Origin: Bifidobacterium moukalabense DSM 27321
GTDB taxonomy: Bacteria; Actinomycetota; Actinomycetes; Actinomycetales; Bifidobacteriaceae
Assembly (NCBI RefSeq): GCF_000522505.1
Contig: NZ_AZMV01000007.1
Span: 248,001 to 312,000, forward strand
Direction of reading: 5' to 3'
Length of the DNA: 64,000 nt
The notes under the pieces are model-generated. The model saw nothing but the letters and a program-made list of their open reading frames with translations. It did not search any database and had not been told where the DNA came from. The position numbers and the translations under genes are program-made. Position 1 is the first letter of the stretch, and each line of letters opens with the position of its first letter. Below, in pieces: positions 21,637-43,602 of this stretch.

Positions 21637-24600
21637 ATGGACCAATCGAAGAAGAGGGCCCTGACCGTACGTATCGTGAAAACGGTGATCGCCGTGGTGT
21701 TGGCCGCGGTGATCGTGGTCGCGATGGTGCTGGTCAACCCGCAGCTGAGCACCAATAAAATCATCTCCAACCTCATGGGGTACAACCATCAAAGCGTCGA
21801 CAACGGCGGCGGGGACGCCGGCGGTGCCGACACGAACTACTACACGGCCGACTACACCAAGGAGAACATCCGTAAGGCCGAAGACAAACTGTACGACCAG
21901 ATCGCCTCCGAAGGCACCGTGCTGCTCAAGAACGACGACAACGAACTGCCGGCCCAAAAGGGCACCACGTTCAGCTTCTTCAGCGCCAACAGCGTGGATG
22001 GCAGCTCATTGACCCAAGGCTATCTAGGCACCCCGGAGACCGTGACCCTCAAAAGCGCGTTCACCGCGGCCGGCTTCAAGGTCAACGAGACCCTGTGGAA
22101 CTACTACGAATCCGGCGCAAGCAAGGATTACGGCCTGGCCACCGGCTCCGTGAACTACGGCGACGGCGAGGACTTCCGCATCAACGAGGCCCCGCTTTCC
22201 GCGCTGCGGAAGGAATCGGGCCTGCTGGATTCGGTGAAGGGCACCACGCCGGTCTACGTACTCAACCGTGTGGTCGGCGAAGGCCGTGACATGCCACGTT
22301 CCATGTACAACCATGCCGATAAGCAGGAAGACAAGGAGAAGAGCTATATCGAACTCGACTCCACCGAAACCGAACTCATCAAATACCTCAACGACAGCTA
22401 CAAGGACGTGGTTCTGCTCGTCAAGTCCAGCGCGGCCATGGAACTTGACTGGCTTAAGGAATATCCGAACATCAAGGCCGTCGTCTATTCGCAGAACGTC
22501 ACCAACGCACTCGCCAAGGTGTTCTCCGGCGAGGTGAACCCCTCCGGCAAGACGGTCGATACGTTCGCCGCCGACGCGCTCGCGTCCCCGGCCGCACAGA
22601 ACTTCGGCAGCTACCAGTATTACGACGAGAGCGGCAATGCCACCAAGTACAACTACGTGGACTATGCCGAAGGCATCTACGTCGGCTACAAATATTACGA
22701 AACCCGTTACGAAGACAAGGTGCTCGGCCAAGGCAGTGCCGGCGATTACGATTACACCAAGGAAGTCGTGTACCCATTCGGCTACGGTCTGAGCTACACC
22801 GATTTCGAGTGGTCCGATTTCTCCGTGACCGCGGACGGCGACGATTTCGTCGCGACCGTGACCGTGAGGAACACGGGCGATACGGCCGGCAAGGACGTCG
22901 TGGAACTGTACGCGCAGACGCCGTATACCGACTACGACAGGCGGAACGCCGTGGAAAAGGCCGCCGTGAACCTGGTCGGCTACGGCAAGACCGCCGAACT
23001 CGAACCGGGCGCCTCCGAAACCGTGAAGATCACCTTCGGCAGGGATCAGCTCAAATCGTACGATTACAAGGGCGCAAGGACCTACATTCTCGATGCCGGC
23101 CAATATCGTTTCACCGCGGCGACCGACGCCAATCAGGCCATCAACAACATTCTTGCCGACAAGGGCAAAGGCGTAGCCGACGGCATGACCGCCGAAGGCG
23201 ACAAGGCGATGGTATCCAGCTGGACTCCGGAAAACACCGACGTGGACACCACCACGTTCGCAACCGATGCCGCCACCGGCAAGGCGATCGCCAATCTGTT
23301 CGATGCCGCCTCCGATCCGGAAGTGACCTATCTGACCCGCTCCGACTGGACCGGCACCTTCCCGAAGCATTACGGCGAATCCTCCAGCGAAATCAACACC
23401 TGGGGCAATGAAATCAACTGCAAGGACTCCGACGGCAACAACGCATCCTGCACATGGATGAAAACCGCTTCGGACGAGCTCATCAAGCAGCTTGACGGCA
23501 ACGATTCCGGCTCCACCGTGGATAGGTCCACCATCACCGACACCCCCACATTCGGCAGAAACAACGGTTTGAAGGTCTCCGACATGCGCGGATTGGATTA
23601 CGACGACGAGCAGTGGAACAAGATCCTCGACCAGCTCACCGAGGACGACTACAACCAGCTCGTATACTTCTCCGGCTATGGCGTGGACTACATCAAATCC
23701 GTGGAGAAGCCGTTCCAAACCGATGCCGACGCGGCGACCGGCTGGTTCTACGGCGGTACCGGCAAGGCATTCCCAAGCATCATGATGCTCACGCAGACCT
23801 GGAACGCCTCGCTGGCCGAGGACCTCGGCGTGATGATGGGCAATGAGGCGCTGCTCGGCGGCGCGAACGGCTGGTATGCGCCGGCCATGAACATCCACCG
23901 CACCCCGTTCTCCGGCCGTAACGGCGAATACTATTCCGAAGACGGTTTCATGTCCGGCTCCATGGCCTCGCTGGAAGTCAAAGGCGCCGCCACCAAGGGT
24001 GTGTACAGCTATATCAAGCATTTCGCGCTCAACGATCAGGAGAACCACCGCGGCGACCGCCCCGGCAACTTCTCCGTGGCGACCTGGTCCAACGAGCAGG
24101 CCATCCGTGAAACCTATCTGAAACCGTTCGACATGTGCATGCATCTGGGCGACATGGACATGAAAGCGGTGACGAAGAAGTCCGACGGAACCTACGAGAA
24201 CACAACCGTCAAGACGCCGATCGCCAAAGGCGTGATGACCTCCTTCAACCGTCTCGGCGCCACATGGACCGGCGGCAATTATGCGCTGATCCAGCAGTTG
24301 CTGCGCGACGAATGGGGCTTCAACGGCCTGATCATCACCGACAACGCCAACACCGGCAAGTTCATGAGCCCATATCAGATGCTGGAGGCGGGAGCGGACA
24401 TCAAGCTGCTGAACGTCAGCGAGGACCCGACCGGCGAACAGCTCGATTTCAATGACGCGGCGACCTACCACTACGCAAGACAGGCCATGCACCGCCTGCT
24501 GTATACGGTCGCGAACTCGAACTGCATGAACGGCGCGCTGCCGGGTGCGGGCTTCAGGTTCTATAATCAGATGAAAATCCTGCAGCTCGCGTTCAACGTG

Positions 24601-24735
24601 ACATGCGGCGTGATTCTGGCGCTGCTCGCCTTCTTCTCCGTGTGGCGCTGGCTGCCGGGCACGATCAGGCGCGTGACGGCTCGTAAGGAAGCACGTGCGG
24701 CCAAAAAGGCCGCCCGAAAGGCGGCGAAGGGCTGA
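21637..24735 (+). CDS. Membrane-anchored GH3 enzyme with swapped domains, copy 1
   Basis: A 1032-residue enzyme with a basic N-terminus and membrane helix (VKTVIAVVLAAVIVVAMVLV), then the part usually C-terminal in GH3 (EGTVLLKNDDNELP and VVYPFGYGLSYTDF with an FnIII-like domain), and only then the catalytic TIM barrel. The nucleophile is predicted as Asp902 in NGLIITDNANTG. A second membrane helix (NVTCGVILALLAFFSVW) and a Lys/Arg/Ala-rich tail end the protein. With both ends inside, the catalytic part would face outwards. Swapped GH3 enzymes are known, for example from Ruminococcus. Substrate is probably a beta-glucoside. Unlike copies 2 and 3 it has no small membrane-protein gene after it; a hairpin and a two-component pair follow. 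Confidence 0.87.
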   Translation: MDQSKKRALTVRIVKTVIAVVLAAVIVVAMVLVNPQLSTNKIISNLMGYNHQSVDNGGGDAGGADTNYYTADYTKENIRKAEDKLYDQIASEGTVLLKNDDNELPAQKGTTFSFFSANSVDGSSLTQGYLGTPETVTLKSAFTAAGFKVNETLWNYYESGASKDYGLATGSVNYGDGEDFRINEAPLSALRKESGLLDSVKGTTPVYVLNRVVGEGRDMPRSMYNHADKQEDKEKSYIELDSTETELIKYLNDSYKDVVLLVKSSAAMELDWLKEYPNIKAVVYSQNVTNALAKVFSGEVNPSGKTVDTFAADALASPAAQNFGSYQYYDESGNATKYNYVDYAEGIYVGYKYYETRYEDKVLGQGSAGDYDYTKEVVYPFGYGLSYTDFEWSDFSVTADGDDFVATVTVRNTGDTAGKDVVELYAQTPYTDYDRRNAVEKAAVNLVGYGKTAELEPGASETVKITFGRDQLKSYDYKGARTYILDAGQYRFTAATDANQAINNILADKGKGVADGMTAEGDKAMVSSWTPENTDVDTTTFATDAATGKAIANLFDAASDPEVTYLTRSDWTGTFPKHYGESSSEINTWGNEINCKDSDGNNASCTWMKTASDELIKQLDGNDSGSTVDRSTITDTPTFGRNNGLKVSDMRGLDYDDEQWNKILDQLTEDDYNQLVYFSGYGVDYIKSVEKPFQTDADAATGWFYGGTGKAFPSIMMLTQTWNASLAEDLGVMMGNEALLGGANGWYAPAMNIHRTPFSGRNGEYYSEDGFMSGSMASLEVKGAATKGVYSYIKHFALNDQENHRGDRPGNFSVATWSNEQAIRETYLKPFDMCMHLGDMDMKAVTKKSDGTYENTTVKTPIAKGVMTSFNRLGATWTGGNYALIQQLLRDEWGFNGLIITDNANTGKFMSPYQMLEAGADIKLLNVSEDPTGEQLDFNDAATYHYARQAMHRLLYTVANSNCMNGALPGAGFRFYNQMKILQLAFNVTCGVILALLAFFSVWRWLPGTIRRVTARKEARAAKKAARKAAKG

Positions 24736-24771
24736 CGTCAGGTCGGCCTTAAGCCTCCTCCTTGATAAAAG

Positions 24772-24811
24772 CAACGGTGGACGACCCTGCCCCTATGGTC
24801 GCCCACCGTTG
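24772..24811 (+). terminator. Hairpin after GH3 copy 1
   Basis: The arms CAACGGTGGACGACC (24772-24786) and GGTCGCCCACCGTTG (24797-24811) pair over 15 bases with one G-U. No T-run. Confidence 0.65.
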
Positions 24812-24926
24812 TTCATCTCCCATGTCTGCCGCACGGGGCAGGGGGTGAAGGGCGGCTCGCGGCCATATTCGGATGCGGTATTGTATTCCGGAAAGGAACG
24901 ACGGGCGAACAAGGGAGTGTGCGTTG

Positions 24927-25643
24927 ATGTTCACGGTGGCGGTCGTTGAGGACGAGCCGGAGGCCGCGCGGAGGCTCGGGGCATGTCTTGGCGAGTTCTC
25001 GCGCAGGAACCCGGGCGTGCGGTTCGATGTGACGGTGTTTTCGGATCCGACGCGTCTGCTTGAAGGGTATCGTCCGATGTGGGACATCGTGTTCATGGAC
25101 ATCGAGATGCCGAACATGGACGGCATGAGCGCGGCCCGCCGTCTGCGTGCGCTTGATGGACGGGTGCTGCTGGTGTTCGTGACGAACATGGCGCAGTTCG
25201 CGGCCAAGGGGTATGAGGTGGATGCGTTGGATTACATCATCAAGCCGTTCTCCTACAACGACTTCGAACGCAAGATCCGCCGTGCCGTGGCCATCCGCGG
25301 CGAGGAATCGGCATCCGTCATGATCGTGCAGCGGGCCGGAACGCAACGTGTGCTCCTGCGTGATATCGAATACATCGAAGTCAGGGAGCACAACCTGCTC
25401 TACCATACCGAACGCGGCATCCTGACCGGCACCGGCACCTTGCAGGATGTGGAGGGCAGGCTCGGCGACCGCGGCTTCCTGCGCTGCAGCAAGGCATTCG
25501 TGGTCAACAGCCGCCATGTCGCCGCCGTCAAGGGCAACGAGCTGACGCTTTCCAGCGGCGAGAGCGTGACCATCGGCCGCACATACAGGAAGTCCTTCAT
25601 GATGGCGCTCGCCGCAAGCATGGGCGACGGCAATGTGATGTAG
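24927..25643 (+). CDS. LytTR-family response regulator, copy 1
   Basis: A 238-residue AgrA-like regulator. The receiver domain has acidic residues VVEDEPE, the phosphorylation site Asp58 in WDIVFMDIEMPNMDGM and Lys in YIIKPFSY. The LytTR DNA-binding domain follows from about residue 135 (RVLLRDIEYIEVREHNLLYHT ... GFLRCSKAFVVNSRHV). ATG 24927 has AAGGGAG nine bases upstream. It is 38 bases upstream of its sensor kinase. Its likely targets are the neighbouring glycosidase genes. It is a close paralogue of the regulator at 34622-35353. Confidence 0.92.
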   Translation: MFTVAVVEDEPEAARRLGACLGEFSRRNPGVRFDVTVFSDPTRLLEGYRPMWDIVFMDIEMPNMDGMSAARRLRALDGRVLLVFVTNMAQFAAKGYEVDALDYIIKPFSYNDFERKIRRAVAIRGEESASVMIVQRAGTQRVLLRDIEYIEVREHNLLYHTERGILTGTGTLQDVEGRLGDRGFLRCSKAFVVNSRHVAAVKGNELTLSSGESVTIGRTYRKSFMMALAASMGDGNVM

Positions 25644-25681: not shown

Positions 25682-26980
25682 ATGGCGCAGACGATTGACG
25701 CGATATTGGCTTTCTTCACCGACAACGGCATGGTCGTGGAACTGCTGGTCTCCACATTGCTGTTCACCTGGTGGCTGGAACGCCGTGGCATGTTCTGGTG
25801 GCGTGCGCTGGCCGGTGCCGCCGTGATGCTCGTCGAATCGACGCTGTGGCATGGCTGCGTGCCGGAGAACTTCTGGACCGTCACCGCGCAGAACATCATC
25901 GTATTCGCATTGCTGATCGCATGGATCGGCGGATGCTGGAAGGTCAGCATCCGCCAGGCGCTGTTCTACTTCGTCATGTCCGGCGCCATGCAGCACCTCG
26001 TCTACCGTGGCGCACGCCTGCTGTCGGTGGGCCTGCACCATTTCTGGCCGGATGGCGCATGGATCGACACCTATGCGTACTCGTTCGTGCAGGTTCCGCT
26101 CTACTGCCTTGCCTATGCCGTATTCGCCCGGCCTATGGCAAAAAAGGACATTTCGATGGTGGGCGGCCGATCGGTGTTCGCCATGATGGTCGGCATGATG
26201 CTGTGCGTCAGCGTATTCACCAACATGTTCAACTTCCTCGCCTCGCCCACGTCCGGCGCGGCGGCGTTCACCGTGTTCGGCCTGTTCGATTTCGTCACCT
26301 GCGTGTTCATGCTCGAACTCGCCATCGAACTCGTCTCCAAACAGCGTGCCCATGCGGAAGGGGAGGTGCTGCGGCAACTGCTGCGCCAACAGAAGCAGCA
26401 GATGGAAAGCACGAAGGAAACCATCGATCTGATCAATGTGAAGACGCATGATCTGAAAAAACAGATCGTGCAGCTCGGTCCCGCCATCTCACAGGAGCAG
26501 GCGGGCGAATTGCAGCAGCTTGTCGAGATCTACGATTCCTCCGTGCGCACCGGCAATGAGACGTTGGATGTGCTGCTGGCGAGCAAGTCGCTGCTCTGCG
26601 AACAGCGTGGCATATCGTTCGACCGCATGGTCGACGGCAAACTGCTCGACTTCATGAAGCCCGCCGACATCTACTCGCTGGTCGGCAATGCGCTCGACAA
26701 TGCGATGGAGGCGGTATCGGCATTGCCGGACGATGCGGAGAAATACATTGCCGTGCGGATATGCGAGAGCAAGGGGATGGCGATGATTCGCGTCGAGAAC
26801 CCGTTTGCCGGGGAACTCGCGTTTTCCGACGGTCTGCCGGTCACCACCAAAGGCGACGTGCAATATCACGGCTTCGGCACACGCTCGATCCGCATGATCG
26901 CCCGGCAATACCATGGATACATGTCGATTTCCGCACGCGACGGCATCTTCAGGCTGACGGTGATACTGCCGCTGCGATAA
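25682..26980 (+). CDS. GHKL sensor histidine kinase (AgrC-like), copy 1
   Basis: A 432-residue kinase with about six membrane helices in the first 215 residues, a helical linker, the phospho-acceptor His256 in INVKTHDLKKQ, and a GHKL ATPase domain with N-box VGNALDNAMEAV and G-box HGFGTRSIRMIARQY. This is the AgrC/HPK10 layout, whose members sense peptides or small molecules through the membrane domain. No agrB or agrD gene is nearby, so the signal is unlikely to be a locally made cyclic peptide. The conserved stretch DSSVRTGNETLDVLLASKS is nearly repeated in copy 2. Confidence 0.9.
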   Translation: MAQTIDAILAFFTDNGMVVELLVSTLLFTWWLERRGMFWWRALAGAAVMLVESTLWHGCVPENFWTVTAQNIIVFALLIAWIGGCWKVSIRQALFYFVMSGAMQHLVYRGARLLSVGLHHFWPDGAWIDTYAYSFVQVPLYCLAYAVFARPMAKKDISMVGGRSVFAMMVGMMLCVSVFTNMFNFLASPTSGAAAFTVFGLFDFVTCVFMLELAIELVSKQRAHAEGEVLRQLLRQQKQQMESTKETIDLINVKTHDLKKQIVQLGPAISQEQAGELQQLVEIYDSSVRTGNETLDVLLASKSLLCEQRGISFDRMVDGKLLDFMKPADIYSLVGNALDNAMEAVSALPDDAEKYIAVRICESKGMAMIRVENPFAGELAFSDGLPVTTKGDVQYHGFGTRSIRMIARQYHGYMSISARDGIFRLTVILPLR

Positions 26981-27013
26981 CGGCCGTATGCGGGCCATGC
27001 ACAGCCGACGATG

Positions 27014-27040
27014 CCGTTCGCCGCATTTCGATGACCGTTC
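27014..27040. promoter_or_regulatory. Candidate LytTR site upstream of GH3 copy 2
   Basis: CCGTTCGC (27014-27021) and CCGTTCAC (27035-27042) are direct repeats exactly 21 bp apart, two helical turns, the geometry of AgrA/LytTR operators. The half-sites also resemble the GTT core of the LytTR consensus. The repeat is short, so this is suggestive only. Confidence 0.4.
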
Positions 27041-27145
27041 ACGAAGCGACGCTTATGCATTGCCGAATCTCCGACCACACTGGAAGCGTGGAGTCTTCAC
27101 CGCCGAGGATTCCTGCGGAGATGTTTGAGATTCAAGGAGCATGAG

Positions 27146-30100
27146 ATGCATAAGCGTACAGGCCTGTGGCGCGGTATCACCGCCGTGGGCGCACTGCTTC
27201 TCGCCGTCGCCATCATGGCGGGAACGATCATGGAGACGTACCGTACGTCCCTTGACGCGTTCGTCGGCACCAGAAGCCAGAGAACCGTGACGGACCAGTC
27301 CGCCGACAGCGGCGATAGCTGGACGTACAAATCCGAATACAAAACCGCTAAGGAGGCATACGAAGGCTTCAGGAAGACGGCCATGGACGAGGCGCAGGAG
27401 ACCTATGCGCTGCTGAAGAACAGCGACAACGCCCTGCCGATCTCCAAAAGCGCGAAAATCACCATGTTCGGTGTGCGCAGCTACGCCCCGGTGTACGGCA
27501 GCTCCGGCGGCTCCGTGACCGACGGCAATTCCACCGTCGAAATCACCAAGGCGTTCGAGGAGGAAGGCTTCCAGATCAATCCTTCCATGCTCAAGGCCTA
27601 TCAGAACTATTTCAAAGACAAGAAGTGGACCACCCCGCAGTTCGGAGGCGGCATCCTTCCCGAATATGAGGACATCACCAAATACAACGATCCATGCGAG
27701 CTGAGCCTTGACGAACTGGCCAGGCTCAACCCCGAATACCGGTCGCAATACGGCGAATACCAGGACGCCGCAATCGTGGTCGTCGGCCGTCCCGGCGGCG
27801 AGAACGGCGACGGCTACTATCCGGGCAAGGATGGCCTGGCCGACGGCGTGAACACCGTGACCGGCAACATCCTCTCCCTGAGTGATGAGGAGATGGCCCT
27901 GGTCAACGAGGCCAAGGCCAATTTCAGCAAGGTGATCGTACTCGTCAATTCCACCAATCCGATGGAAATAGCCAACCTGCAGGACGATCCGGACATCGAC
28001 GCCATTCTGTGGATAGGCTATCCGGGTGCCTACGGCTTCCATGGCGTGGCCGATGTGCTCAACGGCACCGTTTCCCCCTCGGCCCATCTGGGCGACGTGA
28101 TGGCCAGGAACAGCGCCGTCGCACCGGCCATGAGCAATTACGGCAATGTGGCTTGGAAGAACGCCTCCGACTTCTCCGAAGATGCGGCCGTCAACTCCTA
28201 TCTGATCGAGGCCGAAGGCATCTACACCGGTTACCGTTACTACGAAACCCGTTACGCCGACATCGTCATGGGCAATGGCGGGGATACGGCTTCGGCCGGA
28301 ACCTACGCCGCTTCCGACGGCATGGTCGCGACCGCGGATGGCACGTGGGATTACGCCAACGAAGTGGTGTATCCGTTCGGCTACGGCCTGAGCTACACCA
28401 CGTTCGAGCAGAAGCTCGACGGCGTTGAGATCAAGGGCGACAAGAAAACCGCCGTCGTCACGGTCACCGTGAAGAACACCGGTTCCGTGGAAGGCAAGTC
28501 CGTGGTCCAGCTGTACGCTTCCGCGCCATACACCGACTACGACAGGAAGAACGGTGTGGAGAAGTCCGCGATTCAGCTCATGGACTTCGAGAAGACCGAC
28601 TCCCTCAAGCCGGGCGACTCGCAGACCATCACCATGACGGTGGACCTGTCGAATCTAGCCAGCTATGACTCGAACAAGGCCAAGACCTATATCGTCGACC
28701 CCGGCGACTACTACTTCTCCATCGGCGACGACGTGCATGACGCGCTGAACAACGTACTTGCCGCACAGGGGCACTCCGTCTCCGACGGCATGACCGCCGC
28801 CGGAGACGAGGCCAAGACCTACAAGTGGTCTTGGAGCGGCGACGTCGACGCCGACACCTTCGCCACCTCCGGTACCGGAACGAAGATCACCAACCAGCTC
28901 TCCGACGGCCGGTACGCCACCGACTACAACGCCTTTGACGAAGGCACGGTCACGTACCTGACCCGCTCCGACTGGAACGGCACCTTCCCGAAGACCTACT
29001 CCGGCATCAGCGCCAACAGGGAGGTCTCCAAGCTGCTGAACAACGATTTCATCGATCTGAAGTCGGACGGTGACACCTCCGACGTCAAGGTCGGCGACAC
29101 CTCCAGCGATCTGACCCTCAACGACATGAAGGGCGCCTCCTATGATGACGAGCGTTGGGACGAGCTGACCGGCAAGGTCTCCGTCAAGGAGTTCATGCAT
29201 TTTGCGGAGACCGCGTTCCATGCCATCGGCGCAATCGACTCCGTCGGCCTGCAGGAAATGACCACGGACGACGGTCCCGGCGGATCCGACTCCCATTACC
29301 TCAACGAAGGCCAGTATCAGGGCAAGGCTTATGCGGATGCCGACGATTACGCCGACAAGAGCTCCCGGGTGGCTCCCTCGCCCACCAACCTAGCCTACAG
29401 CTGGAACAAGGAGCTCGCCTACCGCAACGGCGAAGTGATCCTTGGCGAGAGCAGCCTTGTATTCAACCTGCCGATCATGATCGCGCCGGCCATGAACCTG
29501 CATCGTCATGCCTACAACTCCCGCGGCGTCGAATACTATTCGGAAGATCCGATCCTTTCCGGGTACATCGGCTCCGCAGTGGTGCAGGGCGCGCAGTCCA
29601 AGGGCGTGCTGGTGAACGTGAAGCATCTTGCGTTCAACGATCAGGAAATCAACCGTTCCGGCGTGGCCACGTTCATGAACGAGCAAAAGGCCCGCGAAAT
29701 GGAGCTGCGCAACTTCCAGCAGGCCTTCGAGGCCAACGGCAAGCCGGCCTCCTTCGAATCCGACGATTCCAAGAAGAACACCTACACCCAGGGCGCGCTC
29801 GGCGTAATGACCTCCTATAACCGTATCGGCGCGGTCGCCTCCAGCGCCAACGCCGCGGTCATGGTCAACATCCTGCGCGACGAGTGGGGCTTCACCGGCT
29901 ATAACGTCACCGACTTCACCTCGGTCTCGCCGCACGCGGCACCGAAGGAATCCGTGCTGGCAGGCACTTCCGCCTTCTGCGGCTTCGGCAACCAGGGCGT
30001 GAAATATTGGGATGCCGACACGCTGGGCAAGGACCGCGACATGCTTCTGGCCATCAAACGGAACATGCATTACTCGCTGTGGGCCATCGCCAACTCCAAC

Positions 30101-30788: not shown

Positions 30789-30830
30789 CCGGCGGCGAGG
30801 CGTCGATTGCGATGTGCGCCTCGCCGCCGG
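30789..30830 (+). terminator. Perfect-stem hairpin after GH3/membrane-protein pair
   Basis: The arms CCGGCGGCGAGGCG (30789-30802) and CGCCTCGCCGCCGG (30817-30830) are perfectly complementary. A smaller perfect hairpin, GCCGTTCA/TGAACGGC (30763-30780), lies just before it. Confidence 0.7.
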
Positions 30831-30874
30831 CGGCCATATCATACGATGTAATTTCAGGGGAGTTTCAGGGATCA

Positions 30875-34632: not shown

Positions 34633-35353
34633 AATCGTCTCCCAGACTGTATGCCAGACCCTGCATGAAGGATTTGCGGAACGCCCTGCCTATGGGCAGT
34701 TCCGTGCCGTCCGACAGGATGGCCGATTGCCCGCGGATTCCCGACAGATGCCGGGGATTGACGAGATACGGTTTGCCGCAGCGAAGAAAGCCGTGCCGGC
34801 CCAGCGCGCTTTCCACGTCCTGCAGGCTTCCCGTGCCGCGGACGCTGCCGCGCTCGGTATGGAATTCAAGATTGTGGCCGCGTACCTCGATATAGCTGAT
34901 CTCCCGCAACAGCAGACGTTGGGAATTGCCCCGCTGCTGGATGATGATGGATTCCGCCTCCGCCGAGCACAGTTTGACCGCGCGCGCGACCTTGCGCTCG
35001 AAATCGGCATAGAGGAATGGCTTGATGATGTAGTCGAGCGCGTCCACCTCATACCCTTTCGAGGCGAACTGCGCCATGTTCGTCACGAAAATCAGGACGA
35101 CCTGTTCGTCAAGGGCGCGAAGTCTGCGTGCGGCGGCCATGCCGTCCATGTTCGGCATCTCGATGTCCATGAACACGATGTCCCACTGTGGCTTGTATCC
35201 CTCAAGAAAAGCCGTCGGTTCGGCGAACGACGTCACGTCGAAGCGCGCTTCCGGATGGTCTGCGGTGAAGCGGGCCAAACAGGACCGCAGCCTATCCGCG
35301 GCTGGTTGTTCGTCTTCGAGTATTGCGACTGTGAACAATTCCTGCTCCCTCAT
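34622..35353 (-). CDS. LytTR-family response regulator, copy 2
   Basis: An AgrA-like regulator of 243 residues from ATG 35353, or 238 from TTG 35338. The TTG start aligns exactly with copy 1 (FTVAxxEDE) and has AGGGAG six bases upstream, so it may be the real one. The receiver Asp lies in WDIVFMDIEMPNMDGM, Lys in YIIKPFLY, and the LytTR domain in RLLLREISYIEVRGHNLEFHT. It is transcribed away from the GH78 operon, with a 21-bp-spaced direct repeat between them. Its likely target is that divergent promoter. Confidence 0.9.
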   Translation of the reverse strand: MREQELFTVAILEDEQPAADRLRSCLARFTADHPEARFDVTSFAEPTAFLEGYKPQWDIVFMDIEMPNMDGMAAARRLRALDEQVVLIFVTNMAQFASKGYEVDALDYIIKPFLYADFERKVARAVKLCSAEAESIIIQQRGNSQRLLLREISYIEVRGHNLEFHTERGSVRGTGSLQDVESALGRHGFLRCGKPYLVNPRHLSGIRGQSAILSDGTELPIGRAFRKSFMQGLAYSLGDDCVF

Positions 35354-35428
35354 GATTCGGCTTCTTCGCGTACAACAACCATACACAGTTCGCCCGGCGG
35401 GGAGCGAAGGGAAACTCGGTGTCGGAAT

Positions 35429-35460
35429 GCATTTCGTGAGCCCTGAAACGCATTTTATGA
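35429..35460. promoter_or_regulatory. Candidate LytTR site between regulator and GH78 operon
   Basis: GCATTTCGTGA (35429-35439) and GCATTTTATGA (35450-35460) are direct repeats 21 bp apart, matching at 9 of 11 bases; with three more flanking bases the match is 11 of 14. The reverse complement TCACGAA also occurs at 27039-27045, beside the candidate site of GH3 copy 2. Confidence 0.5.
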
Positions 35461-35594: not shown

Positions 35595-38198
35595 ATGATC
35601 ACGATCATCGGGCTGGGCGTCGAGCATTCGGAGCGCGGCTGCGTCACCGATAACCCGCATCCTCGTTTCTCGTATGCGGTGCGTTCCGACAGATCCGACG
35701 TCGTGGTGGACGGTGCGCGGCTAGCCGTCGGTGACTGGACCTGCGAAGCGGGCGATCAGACCGCCGTCGCGTATGACGGAAAGCCGTTGGAGCCATTCAC
35801 CGAATATCATGTGACGCTTGACGTGAGTACGGCCGACGGGGAGCACGCGCATGCCGAGACGACGTTCGAGACGGGCCGTTTGGGTCAGGGCTGGCAAGGT
35901 CGTTGGATTTCCGATGCCGGCTACGATTTCGTCGAGAAGAAGGTTTCGCCGGTCCCGATGATGTTCCGCAAGCCGTTCACCTGCGATCCGACGAAAAGCG
36001 TACGCAAGGCGCGTCTGTATGCCACCGCGATGGGAGTGTACGACTTCGCCTGCGACGGCAAGAGGATCGGCGATAGGTATTTCGCTCCCGGTTTCACGTC
36101 ATACAAGACCAATCTGCAATACCAGACCTATGATGTGACCGACATGGTGGGCGCCGGTGCCGTCCACACGTTGCTGGCCACCGTTGCCGGCGGCTGGGCC
36201 GTGGGATCCTTCGTGTTCACCCGCAAGAACCGTGTGAGCGCCGACCGTCAGGCGTTGCTCGCCGAACTGCGCATCGAATACACGGACGGCAGCGTCGAGG
36301 TGATTGGCACGGATGCCAGCTGGGAGGTCAGCGAATCCGGCCCGGTGCGTATGGCCGACCTGTACGATGGCGAGACGTACGACGCCATGATGGATCCCGG
36401 CGCCGACGGTTCGCGCTGCAAGGATTGGCGGCATGCCTCACTGGAGAATCCCCGTTCCCGGCCGAGGCATATCGAGGCGGACTACGGTGCCGGGGTCGTG
36501 GCCCACGAGACCCTCTCCCCGGTGAGCGTGGCCCGCCGTGCCGGAGGCGAACTCGTCTATGATTTCGGCCAGAACCTCGCCGGCGTGGTCCGGATGCGCA
36601 TCGCCAACGGACGGGCCGGGCAGACCGTGGTGGTCCGCCATGCGGAGATACTCAATCCCGACGGGAGCCTGAATACCGCGTTCCTGCGCACGGCGAAGGC
36701 GACGGCCACCTACCGATGCGCCGATGCCGATGGTTTCCCGGAAGGCGTGCAGGAGTACGGTCCGCGGTTCACCTACATGGGATTCCGCTATGTGAGCGTG
36801 CGGGGAGTGGCCGAGGACGATCTGCGGATCGAAGCGGTCGTGCTGCATTCCGATCTGCGCCCCATCGGGGATTTCGCATGCTCGGACGAACGCCTCAACC
36901 AACTGCAGCACAATATCGTGTGGGGAGCCAAGTCGAATCTCATGGACATTCCGACGGACTGCCCCCAAAGGGACGAGCGCATGGGCTGGACCGGCGACAT
37001 CGCGGTCTTCGCCCCGACGGCCTGCCTGAATTTCGACATGAGCCGTTTCTTGGAAAAGTGGCTCAGGGACGTCAAGGCCGAACAGCTCAAGACCGGCGGC
37101 ATTCCCAACACCGTTCCGGTGCAGGGGTACGGTTTCCCCGCCACCATGCCGGAAATGGCCATCGACTGGTGGGGCGACGCCTGTGTGCTCGTGCCCTGGG
37201 CGGTGTACCGTTCCAGCGGCGACGCCACCGTGCTGCATGACATGTACGACACGATGAAGCGTTACGTGAAGGCCTGCCGGTTCTGGGCCGGACTCATCGG
37301 ATTCGGCAAGAGCCGCTACATCTGGAACACCCCTTCGATGCTGCATTTCGGAGACTGGGTCGCACCCGACGTGCCGAAGATGAGCCAATGGCAGAAGCGT
37401 GCGAAGTGGACGGCCACGGCAAGCCTGAACAACACCAGCCGCACCTTGGCCCGCGTGGCCGAGGTCCTGGGGTACGACGAGGATGCGCGGGCCTACGACG
37501 AACTTGCCGACAAGGTGGCCGACGCCTACTGCAGCGTGCTCACCGACGGCAATGGCAGACTCGACAACGAGTTCCAGACGGGCTACGTGCTGCCGCTGTA
37601 CCTGAACATGTTCCCGGAAACCGTTCGCGGCAATGCCGTGGATCATCTGGTGAAGCTTATCGAAGACAATGACTATTGCATCGGCACGGGCTTTCCCGGA
37701 ACCCCATACATTCTCTTCGCGCTCGCGGATAACGGGCGTGAGGATGTGGCATACCGCATGCTGCTCAACACCGCATGCCCGAGCTGGCTGTACGAGGTCG
37801 GCATGGGCGCCACCACCATCTGGGAACGTTGGGACGGCCTCGACGAGAACGGTGAGTGCCCCATCGGCGACGACGGCACCGATCTGATGATCTCCTACAA
37901 CCACTACGCTTCGGGCGCGGTGGGGGCGTTCCTGTACCAGCGGGTGGCCGGCATCGAAGCCATCGGGGCCGCATACCGGAGCTTCCGGGTCAGGCCCGTG
38001 CTTGGCGGGGGGCTGACGTGGGCGAAGGCGCATGTCGATACCCCATATGGCCGTGTCGGATCGGCCTGGTCCCTTGACGGTGGCCGCTTCTCGATCACCG
38101 TGGAGGTGCCCGTCGGCACGACATGCGAACTGGCGCTGCCGGACGGTACGACCATGCAACTGTCCAACGGCGTGCATACGGCCACCTGTGAGATGTGA
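35595..38198 (+). CDS. GH78 alpha-L-rhamnosidase, cytoplasmic
   Basis: An 867-residue GH78 enzyme that should release terminal alpha-L-rhamnose from glycosides. Visible are the N-terminal beta domains (DNPHPRFSYAVRS, TEYHVTLDV), LVYDFGQNLAGVVRMRI, and the catalytic (alpha/alpha)6 barrel with MDIPTDCPQRDERMGWTGD and, later, GATTIWERWDG, the two motifs that hold the catalytic glutamates. The C-terminal beta domain has GVHTATCEM at its end. It has no signal peptide. Start 35595 has AAGGAAGG upstream. It is the first gene of an operon with the GPH symporter, GH3 copy 3 and a four-helix membrane protein. Confidence 0.93.
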   Translation: MITIIGLGVEHSERGCVTDNPHPRFSYAVRSDRSDVVVDGARLAVGDWTCEAGDQTAVAYDGKPLEPFTEYHVTLDVSTADGEHAHAETTFETGRLGQGWQGRWISDAGYDFVEKKVSPVPMMFRKPFTCDPTKSVRKARLYATAMGVYDFACDGKRIGDRYFAPGFTSYKTNLQYQTYDVTDMVGAGAVHTLLATVAGGWAVGSFVFTRKNRVSADRQALLAELRIEYTDGSVEVIGTDASWEVSESGPVRMADLYDGETYDAMMDPGADGSRCKDWRHASLENPRSRPRHIEADYGAGVVAHETLSPVSVARRAGGELVYDFGQNLAGVVRMRIANGRAGQTVVVRHAEILNPDGSLNTAFLRTAKATATYRCADADGFPEGVQEYGPRFTYMGFRYVSVRGVAEDDLRIEAVVLHSDLRPIGDFACSDERLNQLQHNIVWGAKSNLMDIPTDCPQRDERMGWTGDIAVFAPTACLNFDMSRFLEKWLRDVKAEQLKTGGIPNTVPVQGYGFPATMPEMAIDWWGDACVLVPWAVYRSSGDATVLHDMYDTMKRYVKACRFWAGLIGFGKSRYIWNTPSMLHFGDWVAPDVPKMSQWQKRAKWTATASLNNTSRTLARVAEVLGYDEDARAYDELADKVADAYCSVLTDGNGRLDNEFQTGYVLPLYLNMFPETVRGNAVDHLVKLIEDNDYCIGTGFPGTPYILFALADNGREDVAYRMLLNTACPSWLYEVGMGATTIWERWDGLDENGECPIGDDGTDLMISYNHYASGAVGAFLYQRVAGIEAIGAAYRSFRVRPVLGGGLTWAKAHVDTPYGRVGSAWSLDGGRFSITVEVPVGTTCELALPDGTTMQLSNGVHTATCEM

Positions 38199-38250: not shown

Positions 38251-39978
38251 ATGACCACTTCGACCGCATCGAACGCCAGCGGGTTCTTCAACAATCCGCT
38301 GGTGCGCACACGCATCACCTCGGCCAACGTGAAGCCGCCGGAGATGCTTCTTGGATATTTTGTCGGACCGTTCTGCGCATTCATCTCCAATGCGATCTTC
38401 GGCTCATACCTCAATCGCTACTATTCCGATGTGCTGGGATGGACGAACACCGCCAGATTCGGCATGTTCTCCACCATCCTGCCGATGGCGTCGGTGATTC
38501 TTGTGGTCCTGGGCAACCTTGTCATCGGGCGTTTCATAGACAACACCCGCACCTCGCAGGGCAAGGCCCGTCCGTACATGCTGATGTCCGTGCCGTTCGT
38601 GGTGGTGGCCATCGCGCTGCTGTTCATGACCCCGACCGGAGTCGGGTCCGGTCTGCAGATGCTGTGGATCGCGATCTCATACAACCTGTACTACGCCATC
38701 GCGTACCCGTTGTTCTATACCGCGCACAGTTCCATGGTCGGCCTGTCCACCCGAAACAGCAATCAGCGCGGTCTGCTCGCCACCCTTTCGAACGCTTCCG
38801 GCGTGGCCGCGATCGGCATCGGAGCCAGCATTCTCGTGCCGATTCTGCTGCAGAGCTACCTGTTCGTCAACAATGACGGCACCATCGACACCGCGGCGAG
38901 CTACGCGCACTGGCGCGTGGTGATGATCGTGCTGTGCGTGCTGACGGCCGCGGGCATTCTGTGCGAATACTACTTCACCCGCGAACGCATCACCGAAGAG
39001 AACATCAAGCTCAACATCGTCGAGGAAAAGCTGCCCATGGCGCAGCAGGTCAAGGCATGCATGGGCAACGGATACTGGTGGATCATCATCCTGTACTTCC
39101 TGCTGTTCCAGCTTTCCGGCATGATCAAGAACGGCTCCATGAGCTATTACACGCGTTGGATGTTCGACGGCATCTCCACCGAGGCCTCAGCGGGTGCGGC
39201 CATGTCGACGCTCGGCCTGATCGGCGGCATCCCCACCGCCGTCGGTATGCTGCTGGCCTGGCCGATCGCCAACAGATTCGGCAAGCGCAATGCCGTCATG
39301 GTCGGCATGGTCTTCGCGGTCCTCGGCGGCGCGGTGAGCCTTATCGACGTGCACAGCCTTGTCATGGTGTGCATCGGCGTGGTGCTCAAGGGCATTGGTT
39401 CGATTCCGGCGATGTACGTCACGCTGGCGCTGCTTTCCGACGTGCTTGACCATCTCGAGGCGAAGAACGGCTTCCGTTCCGACGGCTTCACCATGTCGGT
39501 GTACGGCGCGATCATGGTCGGCATGACCGGTCTGGGCAACGGCCTGATCAACGCCCTGCTCACCTCCGCCGGTTACGATCCTTCGGCCACGGCGCAAAAC
39601 GGCGCCGTCCAGACGGTGCTGGTGCTGTGCTACATCGGTGCGGAACTGATCTGCTATGCCGTCATCGCCGTGCTCATGGTCTTCCTCAATGTGGAGAAGC
39701 ACGTCAAAGACGATCAGGCGACCATTCTCGAACATCAGAAGGCCGCCGTGCTGGCGGCCGGAGGCGAATGGATCGAACCGGCGGAACGTCTGCGCCGGGA
39801 ACAGGAGCAGGCCGACCTTGTCGCCGAACAGGCCCGCAAGGATGAACTGAAGGCCCGTTGCGTCAAGAAAGGCCTTGATTACGAGGCGGAGGAAGCGAAA
39901 TACCAGTCCAGGCTTGCGCAAAAGGCGCGCAGGGCCGAGGCGAGGAAGGTCCGCAGAAGCGGCGGCCGACCGCAGTGA
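38251..39978 (+). CDS. GPH-family glycoside:cation symporter
   Basis: A 575-residue transporter of the glycoside-pentoside-hexuronide family with about twelve membrane helices. Early features are the GYFVGPFCAFISNAIFGSYL segment and NTRTSQGKARPYMLMSVP, the family loop. After the last helix comes a charged helical tail of roughly 90 residues (EWIEPAERLRREQEQADLV ... ARRAEARKVRRSGGRP) that is longer than in many members. It lies 52 bases after the rhamnosidase gene with GGGAGGAAGG before its start, and probably imports the rhamnoside that GH78 cleaves. Confidence 0.9.
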   Translation: MTTSTASNASGFFNNPLVRTRITSANVKPPEMLLGYFVGPFCAFISNAIFGSYLNRYYSDVLGWTNTARFGMFSTILPMASVILVVLGNLVIGRFIDNTRTSQGKARPYMLMSVPFVVVAIALLFMTPTGVGSGLQMLWIAISYNLYYAIAYPLFYTAHSSMVGLSTRNSNQRGLLATLSNASGVAAIGIGASILVPILLQSYLFVNNDGTIDTAASYAHWRVVMIVLCVLTAAGILCEYYFTRERITEENIKLNIVEEKLPMAQQVKACMGNGYWWIIILYFLLFQLSGMIKNGSMSYYTRWMFDGISTEASAGAAMSTLGLIGGIPTAVGMLLAWPIANRFGKRNAVMVGMVFAVLGGAVSLIDVHSLVMVCIGVVLKGIGSIPAMYVTLALLSDVLDHLEAKNGFRSDGFTMSVYGAIMVGMTGLGNGLINALLTSAGYDPSATAQNGAVQTVLVLCYIGAELICYAVIAVLMVFLNVEKHVKDDQATILEHQKAAVLAAGGEWIEPAERLRREQEQADLVAEQARKDELKARCVKKGLDYEAEEAKYQSRLAQKARRAEARKVRRSGGRPQ

Positions 39979-40047: not shown

Positions 40048-43000
40048 ATGAAAAGAAATCCGAGTTCTCGGGTATGGCGAGGTGTGACGACCACATTCGC
40101 CGCGCTGTTGGCACTGTCGCTGACGGCAACGAGCGCCGTGCAGGGTTTCCGCACCGACATCAACAAGTTCCTAGGTACCACCAGCACCAGGTTCGTGTCG
40201 GATGAAGGCGTGGACGCCGGCGAGACGTACACCTACAAGTCCGATTATTCCAACACCACGGAACTGGTGCAGTCGATCCGCGATTTGGGCGAGCGGGTCA
40301 GCGAGGAGGGCTCCGTGCTGTTGAAGAACGACGGCGCCCTTCCACTGGGCGGGGATGAGACCAAGAGGGTCAGCCTGCTCGGCTTCTCCAGCTACTACCC
40401 GGTGCAGGGAGGCGACATGGGTTCCGTCGTCAGCCAGAACGAGGGAACCGACGCCGATACCGTGGATATGGTCACCGCGTTCAAGGAGAAGGGCTTCTCC
40501 ATCAACGAGACCCTGCAGAGCCTGTATGAGTCGATGAAGGACGATTTCTCCACGGAAATCAACAACTTCGGCCAAAAGACCACGGTCAACCGCATCACCG
40601 CCCCGATGATCGGCGAGAAGTTCTCCGGAAAAGAGCCGTCCCAGGATCAGATGAACAAGGCGAGCTCGGATTGGAAGAGCAGCCTGAACGACAACAACGT
40701 GATGATCGTGACCATCGCCCGCGCATCCGGCGAGAACCGCGCCTATATGCCGGGCCAGGACGGGGTCGACGGCCAGGACGGGCAAAGCGATCCGCTGGGC
40801 CTTACCGATAACGAGCGCGCTCTGATCGATGCCGCGGTGCAGGCCAAGAAGTCCAACGGAGGCAAGGTGATCGTGCTGATCAACAGCGCCAACACCATGC
40901 AGATCCAGGAAGTCGCCGACAATGCCGGCGTCGACGCCATCATGCAGATCGGCCTGCCTGGAGCATACGGTTTCTACGGTGTGGCGGACCTGCTTTCCGG
41001 AGACGCCAATCCGTCCGGCCATCTGTCCGACACCTGGGTGTCGAACAACGCCAGCTCTCCGGCCGTCAACAACTACGGCGACTATGAGTGGACCAATGCG
41101 GACACCGCGCATACGATAAACTCTGAGATCGTTCAGGCGGAAGGCATCTACACCGGCTACAAGTATTACGAGACCCGATACTTCGATGAGCGGCTCGGCC
41201 AGGGCAACGCCTCCTCCACCGTGGGAAGCACCGATGGCGGCTCGTGGAACTACGGCAATGAGGTGACCTATCCGTTCGGCTACGGTCTGAGCTACACCAC
41301 GTTCAGCCAGAAACTCGATTCGGTGGATGTCGACCTGGCCGCCAAGACCGTCACGGCGAAGGTGACGGTCACCAATACGGGCGACGTCTCGGGCAAGAGC
41401 GTCGTGCAGCTGTACGACAACGTGCCGTACACCGATTACGACAAGAGCCACGATGTGGAGAAGCCCGCGGTGCAGCTGCTTGACTATGCCAAGACCAAGG
41501 AACTCAAGCCCGGCGAATCGCAGACCCTGACCATCACCGCGGACGCGCAGTACATGGCGAGCTGGGACTCCACCGCCGAGAACTCCAAGGGCACCAAAGG
41601 CACCTACATTCTCGATGCCGGCGAGTATGTCTTCACCATCGCCGACAACGCGCATGATGCCGCGAACAACGTGCTTGCCAGGCAGGGCGCATCCACGGAC
41701 GGCAATGCCGACAACACGGCCTCCTGGACCCTGGACGGGCTTGACTCCACCACATTCGCCGTCACCAAGAACGGCACCAAGGTGGAGAACCAGCTTCAGG
41801 ACGCCGATTTGAACACGTGGATGCCGGACACCGTGACCTATCTGAGCCGTTCCGACTGGCAGGGGACCTGGCCGAAGACCTATAAGGATCTGACCGCCAC
41901 CGACGAGATGCTCAAGGGCGGGCTCACCAACGACACCTATGAGATCACGTCCAACGGCGACACCTCCTCCGTTACGTGGGGAGCCGACGGCGATCTGAAC
42001 CTCGCCACGCTGAAGGGCGTCGATATCGACGACTCGCGCTGGGACGACCTCATCAACCAGATGGATCTTTCGGAGGCCCTGATCCGCACCGCGTTCGGCG
42101 GCACGTCCACCAAGGCCATCGAATCGATCACCTCTCCCGAAGTCATCCAGAACGATGGCCCCAACGGATTCGCCTCCTACACGCTCGGCCAGTACGCCAA
42201 CACCGACAAGTCCTCCGGCGACCCGTATGCCGTTGATGCCGACGACAAGAACCTGAGCTACTCGATGGGTGTGATGGCCAGCGAGACCGTGCTCGGGCAG
42301 ACCTTCAGCAAGGATCTTGCCGAAGAGTGGGGCAAGGCCATCGGAAACTATTCGATTTGGGCGAACACCACGATTCTGTGGGGCGTGGGCACCAACCTGC
42401 ACCGCACCGCGTACAACGCCCGTAACCACGAATACTATTCCGAGGACCCGGTCCTCACCGGTTTCCAGGCGGCCGCCTCGATTTCGGGCGCCAAGGCGTA
42501 CGGCTGCATTCTGGCTCCGAAGCACTACGCCTTCAACGATACGGAAATCAACCGGACCGGCGTGGCCACATTCATGACCGAGCAGAAGGCCCGTGAGGGA
42601 GAGCTCCGCGCCCACCAGAGCCCGGTCGAGGACGCCGGAACCCTGGGCATGATGAGCGGCTACAACCGCATCGGCGTGACCAGCACCAACGCGTCCACCG
42701 GTCTCATGCTCGGCATCCTGCGCAACGAATGGGGCTTCAAGGGCATCCTGTCCGAAGACTTCATCATGGACAACGAATACCAGAACCTGCGTGCGGCGGC
42801 CTATAACGGCGTCACCATGCTCACCTCCACCGGAGACGACAGCATGGATGCGGTGGCCAAGCTGTGGCCCTACTGGACCGTCGACAACGTTCGGCAGGAC
42901 ACCAAGCTGATGAAGGCCCTGCATCAGAACATGAAGTGGCAGAACTACGCGTACGCCAATTCCAATGCCGTGGACGGCCTGAACTCCACCACACGCATCG

Positions 43001-43122
43001 AACATGTGCGCACGTGGTATGACAACGCGCTGACCGGGGTCAGCGTGGTGACAGGATTGCTGACCCTCCTGGGCGCCGTCATGTACGTGGTATCGCGTCG
43101 CGGGCGTTCCGAACGTCAGTGA
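40048..43122 (+). CDS. Membrane-anchored GH3 enzyme with swapped domains, copy 3
   Basis: A 1024-residue enzyme with an N-terminal helix after MKRNPSSRVWRGVTT, the alpha/beta sandwich (EEGSVLLKNDGALPL, VDAIMQIGLPGAYGFYGVAD), the FnIII-like part after VTYPFGYGLSYTTF, then the TIM barrel with predicted nucleophile Asp904 in KGILSEDFIMDN, and a C-terminal helix (VVTGLLTLLGAVMYVVS) with a basic end. It shares the N-terminal (V/L)WRG(I/V)T motif with copy 2. AGGAGGAA precedes the start. It lies 69 bases after the GPH gene and 27 before a small membrane-protein gene, so it is in the rhamnosidase operon. Confidence 0.88.
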   Translation: MKRNPSSRVWRGVTTTFAALLALSLTATSAVQGFRTDINKFLGTTSTRFVSDEGVDAGETYTYKSDYSNTTELVQSIRDLGERVSEEGSVLLKNDGALPLGGDETKRVSLLGFSSYYPVQGGDMGSVVSQNEGTDADTVDMVTAFKEKGFSINETLQSLYESMKDDFSTEINNFGQKTTVNRITAPMIGEKFSGKEPSQDQMNKASSDWKSSLNDNNVMIVTIARASGENRAYMPGQDGVDGQDGQSDPLGLTDNERALIDAAVQAKKSNGGKVIVLINSANTMQIQEVADNAGVDAIMQIGLPGAYGFYGVADLLSGDANPSGHLSDTWVSNNASSPAVNNYGDYEWTNADTAHTINSEIVQAEGIYTGYKYYETRYFDERLGQGNASSTVGSTDGGSWNYGNEVTYPFGYGLSYTTFSQKLDSVDVDLAAKTVTAKVTVTNTGDVSGKSVVQLYDNVPYTDYDKSHDVEKPAVQLLDYAKTKELKPGESQTLTITADAQYMASWDSTAENSKGTKGTYILDAGEYVFTIADNAHDAANNVLARQGASTDGNADNTASWTLDGLDSTTFAVTKNGTKVENQLQDADLNTWMPDTVTYLSRSDWQGTWPKTYKDLTATDEMLKGGLTNDTYEITSNGDTSSVTWGADGDLNLATLKGVDIDDSRWDDLINQMDLSEALIRTAFGGTSTKAIESITSPEVIQNDGPNGFASYTLGQYANTDKSSGDPYAVDADDKNLSYSMGVMASETVLGQTFSKDLAEEWGKAIGNYSIWANTTILWGVGTNLHRTAYNARNHEYYSEDPVLTGFQAAASISGAKAYGCILAPKHYAFNDTEINRTGVATFMTEQKAREGELRAHQSPVEDAGTLGMMSGYNRIGVTSTNASTGLMLGILRNEWGFKGILSEDFIMDNEYQNLRAAAYNGVTMLTSTGDDSMDAVAKLWPYWTVDNVRQDTKLMKALHQNMKWQNYAYANSNAVDGLNSTTRIEHVRTWYDNALTGVSVVTGLLTLLGAVMYVVSRRGRSERQ

Positions 43123-43149
43123 GATCGAAGCTAGCTAAGGAGAACCGCA

Positions 43150-43602
43150 ATGAGCTTCATGAAAAGACAAGCGTTTGGCTTCTACGTCACAATACTGGCC
43201 GCCGTCGCGGCGATCGTCGGGCTGGTCTTCTACTTCATCAACAGCCATACCGCGACTTTCGGCAATATCGCGCTGAACCGGCTCACCATCGCCGGCTCGG
43301 TCGTGGCGATCGCGCTGATGGTCGTACGTGTGGCGTTGGAACAGCCCAAGTTGACCAATCCGGTGTCGTCGACCGTTGCCGACATCTGCTGCGTGATCAC
43401 GTCAGTGCTGCTGATGTGCTCCACCGCGGTGTTCATCTGCGATCGGGTGAACACGGTGGCCAGTGTGATCAGTTTTGCGCAGAACGCGCAGTCGACGGCT
43501 GATCTGCAAAGCGTCATCGTTGGCGTGGCCGCCATGGCCACCGCAACGGTGCTGAGCATCATCGCCTCGTATTTCGGCATGTGCCGGAAGCGGAAGGCCT
43601 GA
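43150..43602 (+). CDS. Small four-helix membrane protein paired with GH3, copy 2
   Basis: A 150-residue protein with four hydrophobic helices (around FYVTILAAVAAIVGLVFYFI, TIAGSVVAIALMVV, CCVITSVLLMCSTAVFIC and VGVAAMATATVLSIIASYFG), similar in size and layout to the protein at 30295-30753. Both begin with a helix ending near YLVNS or YFINS and follow a swapped GH3 gene directly. AAGGAGAA lies just upstream of the start. The function is unknown. Confidence 0.75.
   Translation: MSFMKRQAFGFYVTILAAVAAIVGLVFYFINSHTATFGNIALNRLTIAGSVVAIALMVVRVALEQPKLTNPVSSTVADICCVITSVLLMCSTAVFICDRVNTVASVISFAQNAQSTADLQSVIVGVAAMATATVLSIIASYFGMCRKRKA

Follow-up and report, generated by a model that had tools for sequence, protein, structure and literature searches.

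Bifidobacterium moukalabense DSM 27321 carries, on contig NZ_AZMV01000007.1 of its 2.5 Mb, 12-contig genome, a run of genes in which permuted glycoside hydrolases of family GH3 lie among histidine kinases, LytTR response regulators, other glycosidases and transporters. Its DnaX fits the genus: the best matches in the named genomes compared are Bifidobacterium asteroides (76% identity over the first 430 residues) and Alloscardovia omnicolens (50% over 846 residues). A phosphoketolase, also encoded here, is no guide, since five of six other genomes searched have one and three of these five are not bifidobacteria. The question raised by this locus is whether these genes form one system, and what it would serve. 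An initial annotation had read them as a single 22-kb surface system for plant glycosides, with rhamnose-containing flavonoid glycosides or saponins as fitting substrates. Analysis of a 64,000-nucleotide stretch of the contig (the window, within which all positions are given, on the forward strand unless stated) leads to a different answer: the region consists of two modules and one extra GH3 gene, GH3a, and is not one continuous system. The core that recurs in other genomes is a kinase, a regulator and a permuted GH3 enzyme, not rhamnose chemistry. As an overall explanation, two inducible glycoside-use modules of one design, accompanied by the extra GH3 gene, is considered probable.

Module 1 (24927-33340) opens with RR1 (24927..25643, in an open reading frame that begins at 24873), a response regulator whose LytTR DNA-binding domain is recognized by Pfam, and HK1 (25682..26980), a membrane GHKL histidine kinase that matches Pfam HATPase_c_5 and has three helices above the hydropathy threshold. 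The doubly anchored GH3 enzyme GH3b (27146..30283) follows, then S1 (30295..30753), a small 4-helix membrane protein recognized by a coding model and by hydropathy, which starts 11 bp after the GH3b stop codon, and finally a beta-galactosidase-like GH2 enzyme (30812..33340, with a coding-model start at 30965). Module 2 (33334-45033) has its regulatory pair on the reverse strand: the membrane GHKL kinase HK2 (33334..34632; Pfam) and the LytTR regulator RR2 (34622..35353), which was assigned from its translation and its 63% identity to RR1. Divergent from this pair are a GH78 alpha-L-rhamnosidase (35595..38198 from the coding-model start, within an open reading frame of 35076-38198), a GPH/MelB-type sugar:cation symporter (38251..39978), GH3c (40048..43122), the small 4-helix membrane protein S2 (43150..43602, 27 bp after the GH3c stop codon) and, behind S2, a second MFS transporter (43642..45033; Pfam). 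GH3a (21637..24735) precedes both modules as an extra copy. The genes listed in the initial annotation are all real, and its GH78 rhamnosidase, GPH symporter and GH2 enzyme are each confirmed by Pfam; it missed S1 and stopped before the second MFS transporter.

That the two modules are separable is apparent from relatives. The window is colinear with the genome of relative G023 (locus L031) over 18001-21425 (85% identity), 24900-33323 (89%) and 45150-49002 (91%), with no colinear counterpart at that place for 21426-24899, which holds GH3a, or for 33324-45149, which holds module 2. The segment common to both genomes is thus module 1, RR1-HK1-GH3b-S1-GH2, and since GH3a and module 2 are absent from that place in G023, they represent either gains here or losses there. 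Module 1 also holds together elsewhere: eight of nine fetched relatives with a close GH3b (L031, L036, L037, L122, L126, L127, L128, L129 and L130) have a kinase and/or regulator, an S1-type protein and a GH2 enzyme in the fetched stretch, the kinase and GH2 frames being broken in L037. The exception is L128, whose fetched stretch contains no kinase/regulator, S1-type protein or GH2.

Module 2 has its own distribution. A relative of GH3c with at least 67% identity is found in four of 112 genomes of the genus (B. moukalabense itself, G071, G122 and G141), and in all four the regulator, kinase, GH78, GPH symporter, GH3c and S2 occur together. Their order is RR-HK-GH78-GPH-GH3c-S2 in G071, G122 and G141; in the window the regulator pair is inverted relative to this arrangement. 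The second MFS transporter follows module 2 in G071 and G122, as in the window (67-69% identity), its place being taken by a GH2 gene in G141, and in G122 modules 2 and 1 stand side by side in the order opposite to that of the window. Among ten genomes searched, GH78 relatives of at least 67% identity are present in exactly the same four, always at the module 2 locus, while the other GH78 matches in those ten (37-39% identity) lie at other places. One continuous rhamnoside system is rejected on the basis of the G023 synteny and of the loci in G071, G122 and G141.

Several relatives carry anchored GH3 genes that are broken by stops or split frames (L132:9201-12158; G023:C1:1947458-1949363; L037), which points to gain and loss. 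One contig deposited as a Clostridiales metagenome-assembled genome (L097:441-12466) encodes a GH3 protein 69% identical to GH3b. The same stretch, whose GC content is 0.54-0.63, also has a regulator-kinase pair, genes resembling GH2, GH3 and GPH, and one for a 4-helix protein; this cluster may reflect transfer or wrong binning. A search of the PLSDB plasmid collection with GH3a returned just one short Rhizobium match.

The evidence that a kinase and regulator belong with the GH3 enzyme comes from counts of their proximity. The B. moukalabense genome encodes eight GHKL kinases, and for seven of them there are long permuted GH3 genes no more than 10 kb away. Across 39 genomes (this one, 24 of the genus and 14 of the order), 24 of 36 GHKL kinases scoring at least 46 bits are within 10 kb of a permuted GH3 gene among the matches listed, against 0.98 expected and a maximum of 8 in 1e6 simulations; 21 of 57 GHKL rows, at 39.5 bits or less, had been dropped to give the 36. 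Conversely, a kinase is present at 29 of 34 GH3 places in the same genomes, again among the matches listed. These places were merged by hand, with G014 retained, though three of its four places are broken frames, and with the GH3 pseudogene of G023 excluded.

The association extends well beyond the order. Eighty named loci, the best 80 of the GH3 matches, come from Lachnospiraceae, Oscillospiraceae, Coriobacteriia, Cellulomonas and relatives, Streptococcus suis and others. A kinase and regulator are found in 43 of them, a relative of the window GH2 in 12, of the symporter in 6 and of GH78 in only 4, which again speaks against a system built around rhamnosides. The contrast between the pair and GH78 (43/80 versus 4/80) is somewhat overstated, because profiles were used to look for the pair, but one sequence each for GH2, GH78 and GPH. 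In a subset of 30 loci, 21 hold the pair where 1.98 would be expected from genome-wide kinase counts (P 3e-20); this subset was chosen from the 80 mainly for length, after pairs had already been seen. Thirty-one of the 80 loci reach 20 kb; the subset omits four of these (L041 and L120, which have a pair, and L048 and L078, which do not) and includes three shorter ones (L045 and L061 with, L062 without). Taken without that selection, 21 of these 31 longer loci hold the pair, alongside the 43 of 80 overall. The genome's single GHKL match falls in the GH3 locus in each of Cellulomonas hominis, Demequina iriomotensis and Cellulosimicrobium cellulans. Gene order is also regular: the kinase is 5′ of GH3 in 35 of 43 pairs no more than 3 kb apart, and the gap between kinase and GH3 is below 500 bp in 34 of 43, with a median of 135 bp between stop-to-stop frames. 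Among individual loci, Streptococcus suis strain HCJ31 (L056) has a permuted GH3 with a kinase/regulator pair, and a further B. moukalabense locus (L023; G000:C8:1-20000) holds two anchored GH3 genes, one ordinary GH3 gene and two kinase/regulator pairs.

The kinase follows module type. HK1 is 94% and 64% identical to module 1 kinases and 43-45% identical to those of module 2; HK2 is 51-53% identical to module 2 kinases and 45-47% to those of module 1. RR1 is likewise nearest to regulators of its own module type. Distances between kinases correlate with those between their GH3 partners in 12 Bifidobacterium-side pairs (r 0.63, a value that includes shared species history), and over all 43 pairs the correlation is 0.13 (p 0.05), or 0.21 for the sensor part of the kinase alone.

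A number of observations weigh against so close a tie. Nine of the 30 selected loci and 37 of all 80 are without a pair, many of the latter being incomplete stretches; five of the 34 GH3 places in relatives have no kinase within 10 kb among the matches listed; and 74 of the 80 loci have no match to the window symporter. RR2 shows the same identity, 63%, to the regulators of either module. In pairs from outside Bifidobacterium, distances between kinases are uncorrelated with those between GH3 proteins (r 0.06, 31 pairs, p 0.29), and four pairs from the B. moukalabense genome give r -0.13. Strict co-evolution of kinase and GH3 is rejected on these last two values. The low correlations suggest instead that partners have been exchanged while the type of partnership recurs.

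GHKL kinases with LytTR regulators form the domain pair of AgrC/AgrA and ComD/ComE, and the window pairs could accordingly be peptide quorum sensors that chance to adjoin carbohydrate genes. Pfam does find a GHKL kinase and a LytTR regulator here, and to that extent the description of the pairs as AgrC/AgrA-type is borne out by domain content. It goes no further: AgrB was found in none of 11 genomes, a weak negative, as none of 14 control genomes passed the cut-off either, and agr quorum sensing is rejected with that qualification, on a search aimed at AgrB. The pairs are moreover linked to a single type of enzyme across several phyla, far above chance, which likewise argues against chance neighbourhood, and peptide quorum sensing is regarded as very unlikely. 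AgrC/AgrA and SilB/SilA do resemble the modules in combining a kinase with a LytTR regulator and sites 21 bp apart from start to start, according to the passages available from the report describing them (PMC2766830). They differ in that the genes linked to the window pairs are glycosidases.

The spacing of such sites also bears on regulation. In the available part of the same report (PMC2766830), the sites bound by LytTR regulators are 9-bp repeats with 12 bp between them (10 and 11 in the case of SilA), equivalent to 21 bp from start to start. Near-exact 10-mer repeats at a spacing of 21 bp occur 5′ of GH3 in 18 of 105 regions, whilst other spacings average 2.0. The 105 regions remain from 124 GH3 frames after those with no detectable first helix, those below 150 bp and near-duplicates were dropped. 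Other genes of these loci have the 21-bp repeat in 30 of 552 upstream regions (Fisher p 1e-4 versus GH3), where a spacing of 21 is not outstanding among multiples of 3 (34 at 24 and 30 at 15), a 3-base periodicity that arises because the start codons of this control are crude. Among 25 GH3 genes of newly fetched loci, a set that includes near relatives and was not thinned, 21 is the commonest spacing (3/25), with no other spacing found more than once and 1 of 108 among other genes.

Within the window, a LytTR-type doublet recognized in a seven-genome alignment lies 5′ of GH3b (27012..27042), with half-sites at 27012-27021 and 27033-27042 starting 21 bp apart. The alignment is gap-free between the half-sites in all seven genomes, and 11 of 16 invariant alignment columns fall at 27012-27043. 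A pattern made from this doublet matches once in the window, where 0.01 would be expected, the pattern having been derived from that very site. It is found in two of 138 loci, in both cases 5′ of GH3 (L022 and L129), and only the L129 match is new information, as the pattern was drafted after the window and L022 sites were known. Between RR2 and GH78, a repeat scan identifies a direct repeat spaced 21 bp (35426..35460; copies at 35426-35439 and 35447-35460) with a shuffle p of 0.028, in a conserved stretch of a four-genome alignment. For GH3a the best upstream 21-bp repeat is not significant (shuffle p 0.159), and inspection finds a single possible LytTR half-site, a weak one, at 21540..21548, which we take to fit the LytTR consensus.

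Set against these sites are several results. The 21-bp repeat is present in only about one in six GH3 upstream regions, and in 11 of 71 without a pair matched within 3 kb, nearly as often as in those with one (8 of 40); regulators encoded at a distance may also be involved, or the connection is less tight than supposed here. Half-site 2 of the GH3b doublet is loose in three of the seven genomes (the near twins G092 and G101, and G114), and shuffling gives no significance to the 12-mer repeat score of the GH3b doublet in the window itself (p 0.433). The GH78 upstream repeats of the three module 2 relatives do not reach significance (p 0.756-0.955), their half-sites being less alike, and none of three GH78 genes of newly fetched loci has a 21-bp repeat. 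A looser form of the doublet pattern has five matches in the B. moukalabense genome, two of them 5′ of GH3, and one match for its reversed control; these five carry little weight, since the pattern was drafted with the two GH3-upstream sites in mind. The 21-bp doublets are likely candidates for the DNA site of the LytTR regulators. The claim that the GH3 enzymes are tied to the two kinase/regulator pairs is supported, with linkage far above chance and direct repeats that fit LytTR control.

The enzymes at the centre of the modules have an unusual domain order. In all three window GH3 proteins, Pfam places the GH3_C domain, an alpha/beta sandwich, before the GH3_N TIM barrel, with an Fn3-like domain between them, as the initial annotation had stated for the sandwich and barrel. 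The additional claim of a membrane helix at each end stands for GH3a and GH3b. In GH3c only the C-terminal helix exceeds the hydropathy threshold; the N-terminal stretch is weaker and might be a signal peptide that is removed. Helices at both ends are thus clear for two of the three. Across loci, both-end hydrophobic helices are found in 104 of 124 permuted GH3 frames and in 0 of 30 ordinary GH3 frames of the same loci, a difference that is not chance; all such counts come from a plain hydropathy threshold applied to stop-to-stop frames rather than a trained predictor.

An AlphaFold2 model of GH3b (mean predicted local distance difference test score, pLDDT, 85.6; predicted template-modelling score 0.90) matches the structures 5wug/5wvp and 5k6l/m/n/o over nearly its whole length (976-1000 alignment columns). 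The remaining GH3 structures among the 50 matches listed align over about 450-610 columns. The acid/base Glu, the nucleophile Asp and the -1 subsite Asp are invariant in 25 of 25 permuted GH3 proteins, as labelled by alignment to 2x40, and the Glu and nucleophile are invariant in 35 of 35 GH3 proteins of a second set, labelled in the same manner. Alignment places the Glu in the sandwich domain and the nucleophile in the barrel, and beta-glycosidase activity is predicted for the permuted proteins. In five loci (L023, L030, L036, L039 and L040) an ordinary GH3 gene (774-870 aa) adjoins the anchored one and is followed directly by a gene for a 185-222 aa protein with 3-4 membrane helices, a recurrent companion.

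S1 and S2 are sisters. A protein of their size with at least three helices is encoded no more than 250 bp behind 18 of 124 GH3 frames, compared with 14 of 580 other long frames (p 5e-7). These 18 companions are grouped by size and helices; common descent of all of them is not established, because they are only 13-37% identical to S2 and share no nearly invariant column besides the start. Pfam and NCBIfam yield no significant match to the 4-helix protein (best E 0.011), and the AlphaFold2 model of S2, which has four helices (pLDDT 87.0), has no fold match in the PDB at E 0.001 or better. Since its gene lies directly behind an enzyme with membrane helices, the protein probably packs against the GH3 anchors or acts as a stability partner. 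A bolder proposal is that the 4-helix protein and the GH3 enzyme with its two anchors act jointly in the membrane as a catalytic co-sensor, the kinase reading turnover or the freed aglycone through helix contacts. Each module would then be a movable sense-and-cut unit, able to take on different intracellular enzymes and directed chiefly at amphipathic glycosides of plants, saponins for example. This is put forward as a speculation, and a rather improbable one.

From the computed gene content, GH3b fold, hydrophobic anchors, recurring order, kinase-GH3 linkage and 21-bp repeat enrichment, we infer a mechanism, including its signal, DNA binding, substrates, direction of transport and protein locations. 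The membrane GHKL kinase of each module would detect a signal tied to the substrate and activate its LytTR regulator, which would bind a doublet of half-sites 21 bp apart and switch on the operon. The resulting GH3 exo-glycosidase, fixed in the membrane by its end helices with its catalytic part outside, would trim beta-linked sugars from glycosides at the membrane face. Uptake and finishing inside the cell would follow, and the intracellular partners, which differ between modules, may set the diet: the GH2 enzyme in module 1, and in module 2 the symporter and GH78, a combination that would suit rhamnosylated plant glycosides.

The partner genes are consistent with this division of labour. The module 1 GH2 enzyme is nearest to the NCBIfam beta-galactosidases GalB/GalA, far below the cut-offs. 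GH78 has four Bac_rhamnosid domains and a Rha78A-like immunoglobulin (Ig) domain in Pfam, and reaches no NCBIfam equivalog cut-off. Neither enzyme has a hydrophobic N-terminal helix by hydropathy, which suggests that both are cytoplasmic. The symporter matches Pfam MFS_2 over its whole length (228 bits against a cut-off of 27), its best NCBIfam match being TIGR00792 at 157.5 bits against a cut-off of 231. Because GH78 and the symporter stand with GH3c in four of four genomes, use of rhamnosides is plausible for module 2; the suggestion that rhamnosylated glycosides fit the whole enzyme set of the region would hold for this module only. GH78 enzymes of Bifidobacterium act on ginsenoside Re, as described in the available part of a study of such enzymes (PMC11673932), and passages of another (PMC8074910) count GH3 and GH78 among the families that typify Bifidobacterium of hosts with omnivorous and fruit-eating habits.

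Membrane-active plant glycosides such as saponins could also be a threat rather than a food. Modules that detect such compounds and strip sugars from them at the membrane, so making them harmless, with nutrition in second place, would account for an enzyme fixed at the membrane and for the GHKL/LytTR pair; fungi have GH3 enzymes that detoxify saponins. Three further GH3-pair loci of the B. moukalabense genome (L021, L022 and L025) have no relative of the window symporter, GH2 or GH78 in the fetched stretch, these being the only transporter and enzyme types sought. However, the sugar symporter and GH78 accompany GH3c in all four genomes with a close GH3c, and GH2 accompanies GH3b in eight of nine fetched relatives, associations that point to feeding, and a primarily defensive role is considered unlikely. 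Alternatively, the GH3 proteins might act on surface glycans or glycolipids of the cell itself and not on the diet, as their membrane anchoring and broad spread would allow. Their presence is patchy, however: a GH3c search at E 1e-120 is passed by 16 of 112 genus genomes, and G023 has neither GH3a nor module 2 at this place. The partners, moreover, are diet-type enzymes, and such a role is considered highly improbable. Dietary glycoside use by two modules is thus the preferred reading. Elsewhere in the window (15378-17473), Pfam identifies genes for a ParA-like protein and a type II/IV secretion ATPase, which we take to be probably a tad-type pilus cluster.

Each component of the modules has known counterparts. 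The GH3 enzyme GlyA1 (PDB 5k6l) has the same order of sandwich, Fn3 domain and TIM barrel, with a fold match over nearly the whole length, and differs in having an extra C-terminal domain; the available passages of its account name no kinase or regulator, and the word transmembrane is absent from the main text (PMC5104943). The same passages describe the permuted topology as found mainly in Firmicutes, also in Actinobacteria and Archaea, and linked to animal guts. The Gram-positive polysaccharide utilization loci (PULs) of Roseburia and E. rectale resemble the region as clusters of glycosidases, a transporter and a regulator, and the arabinoxylan cluster Ros-7 includes a kinase, a LytTR regulator and a GPH transporter. 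Ros-7 differs from the modules in having GH25, GH43 and GH51 rather than GH3, and the available PUL passages describe no doubly anchored GH3 core (PMC5320581). A Gram-positive PUL is defined by co-regulated genes for glycosidases, a transporter and a regulator; by its gene content, this region is a candidate. The Bifidobacterium rhamnosidases C118 and BD890 are like the window GH78 in family, genus and, as predicted for the latter, plant glycoside substrates, a likeness drawn by family only, and unlike it were studied as isolated enzymes rather than in a gene module, in the passages available (PMC11673932).

None of the three elements, permuted GH3 enzymes, LytTR pairs or Gram-positive PULs, is thus new by itself. 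For their combination as a module that recurs in several phyla, the open-licence PMC literature searched yielded no description of kinase, regulator and anchored GH3 together. Permuted GH3 enzymes form a large family associated with the gut, for which the literature seen offers an isolated enzyme; the present finding connects this family with its cognate sensor, with a probable DNA site and with a gene order that is portable. It thereby offers a direct route to the plant glycosides that are sensed and cut by each module. It also suggests that among the unassigned GHKL/LytTR pairs of gut bacteria there are sensors of glycosides rather than of peptides.

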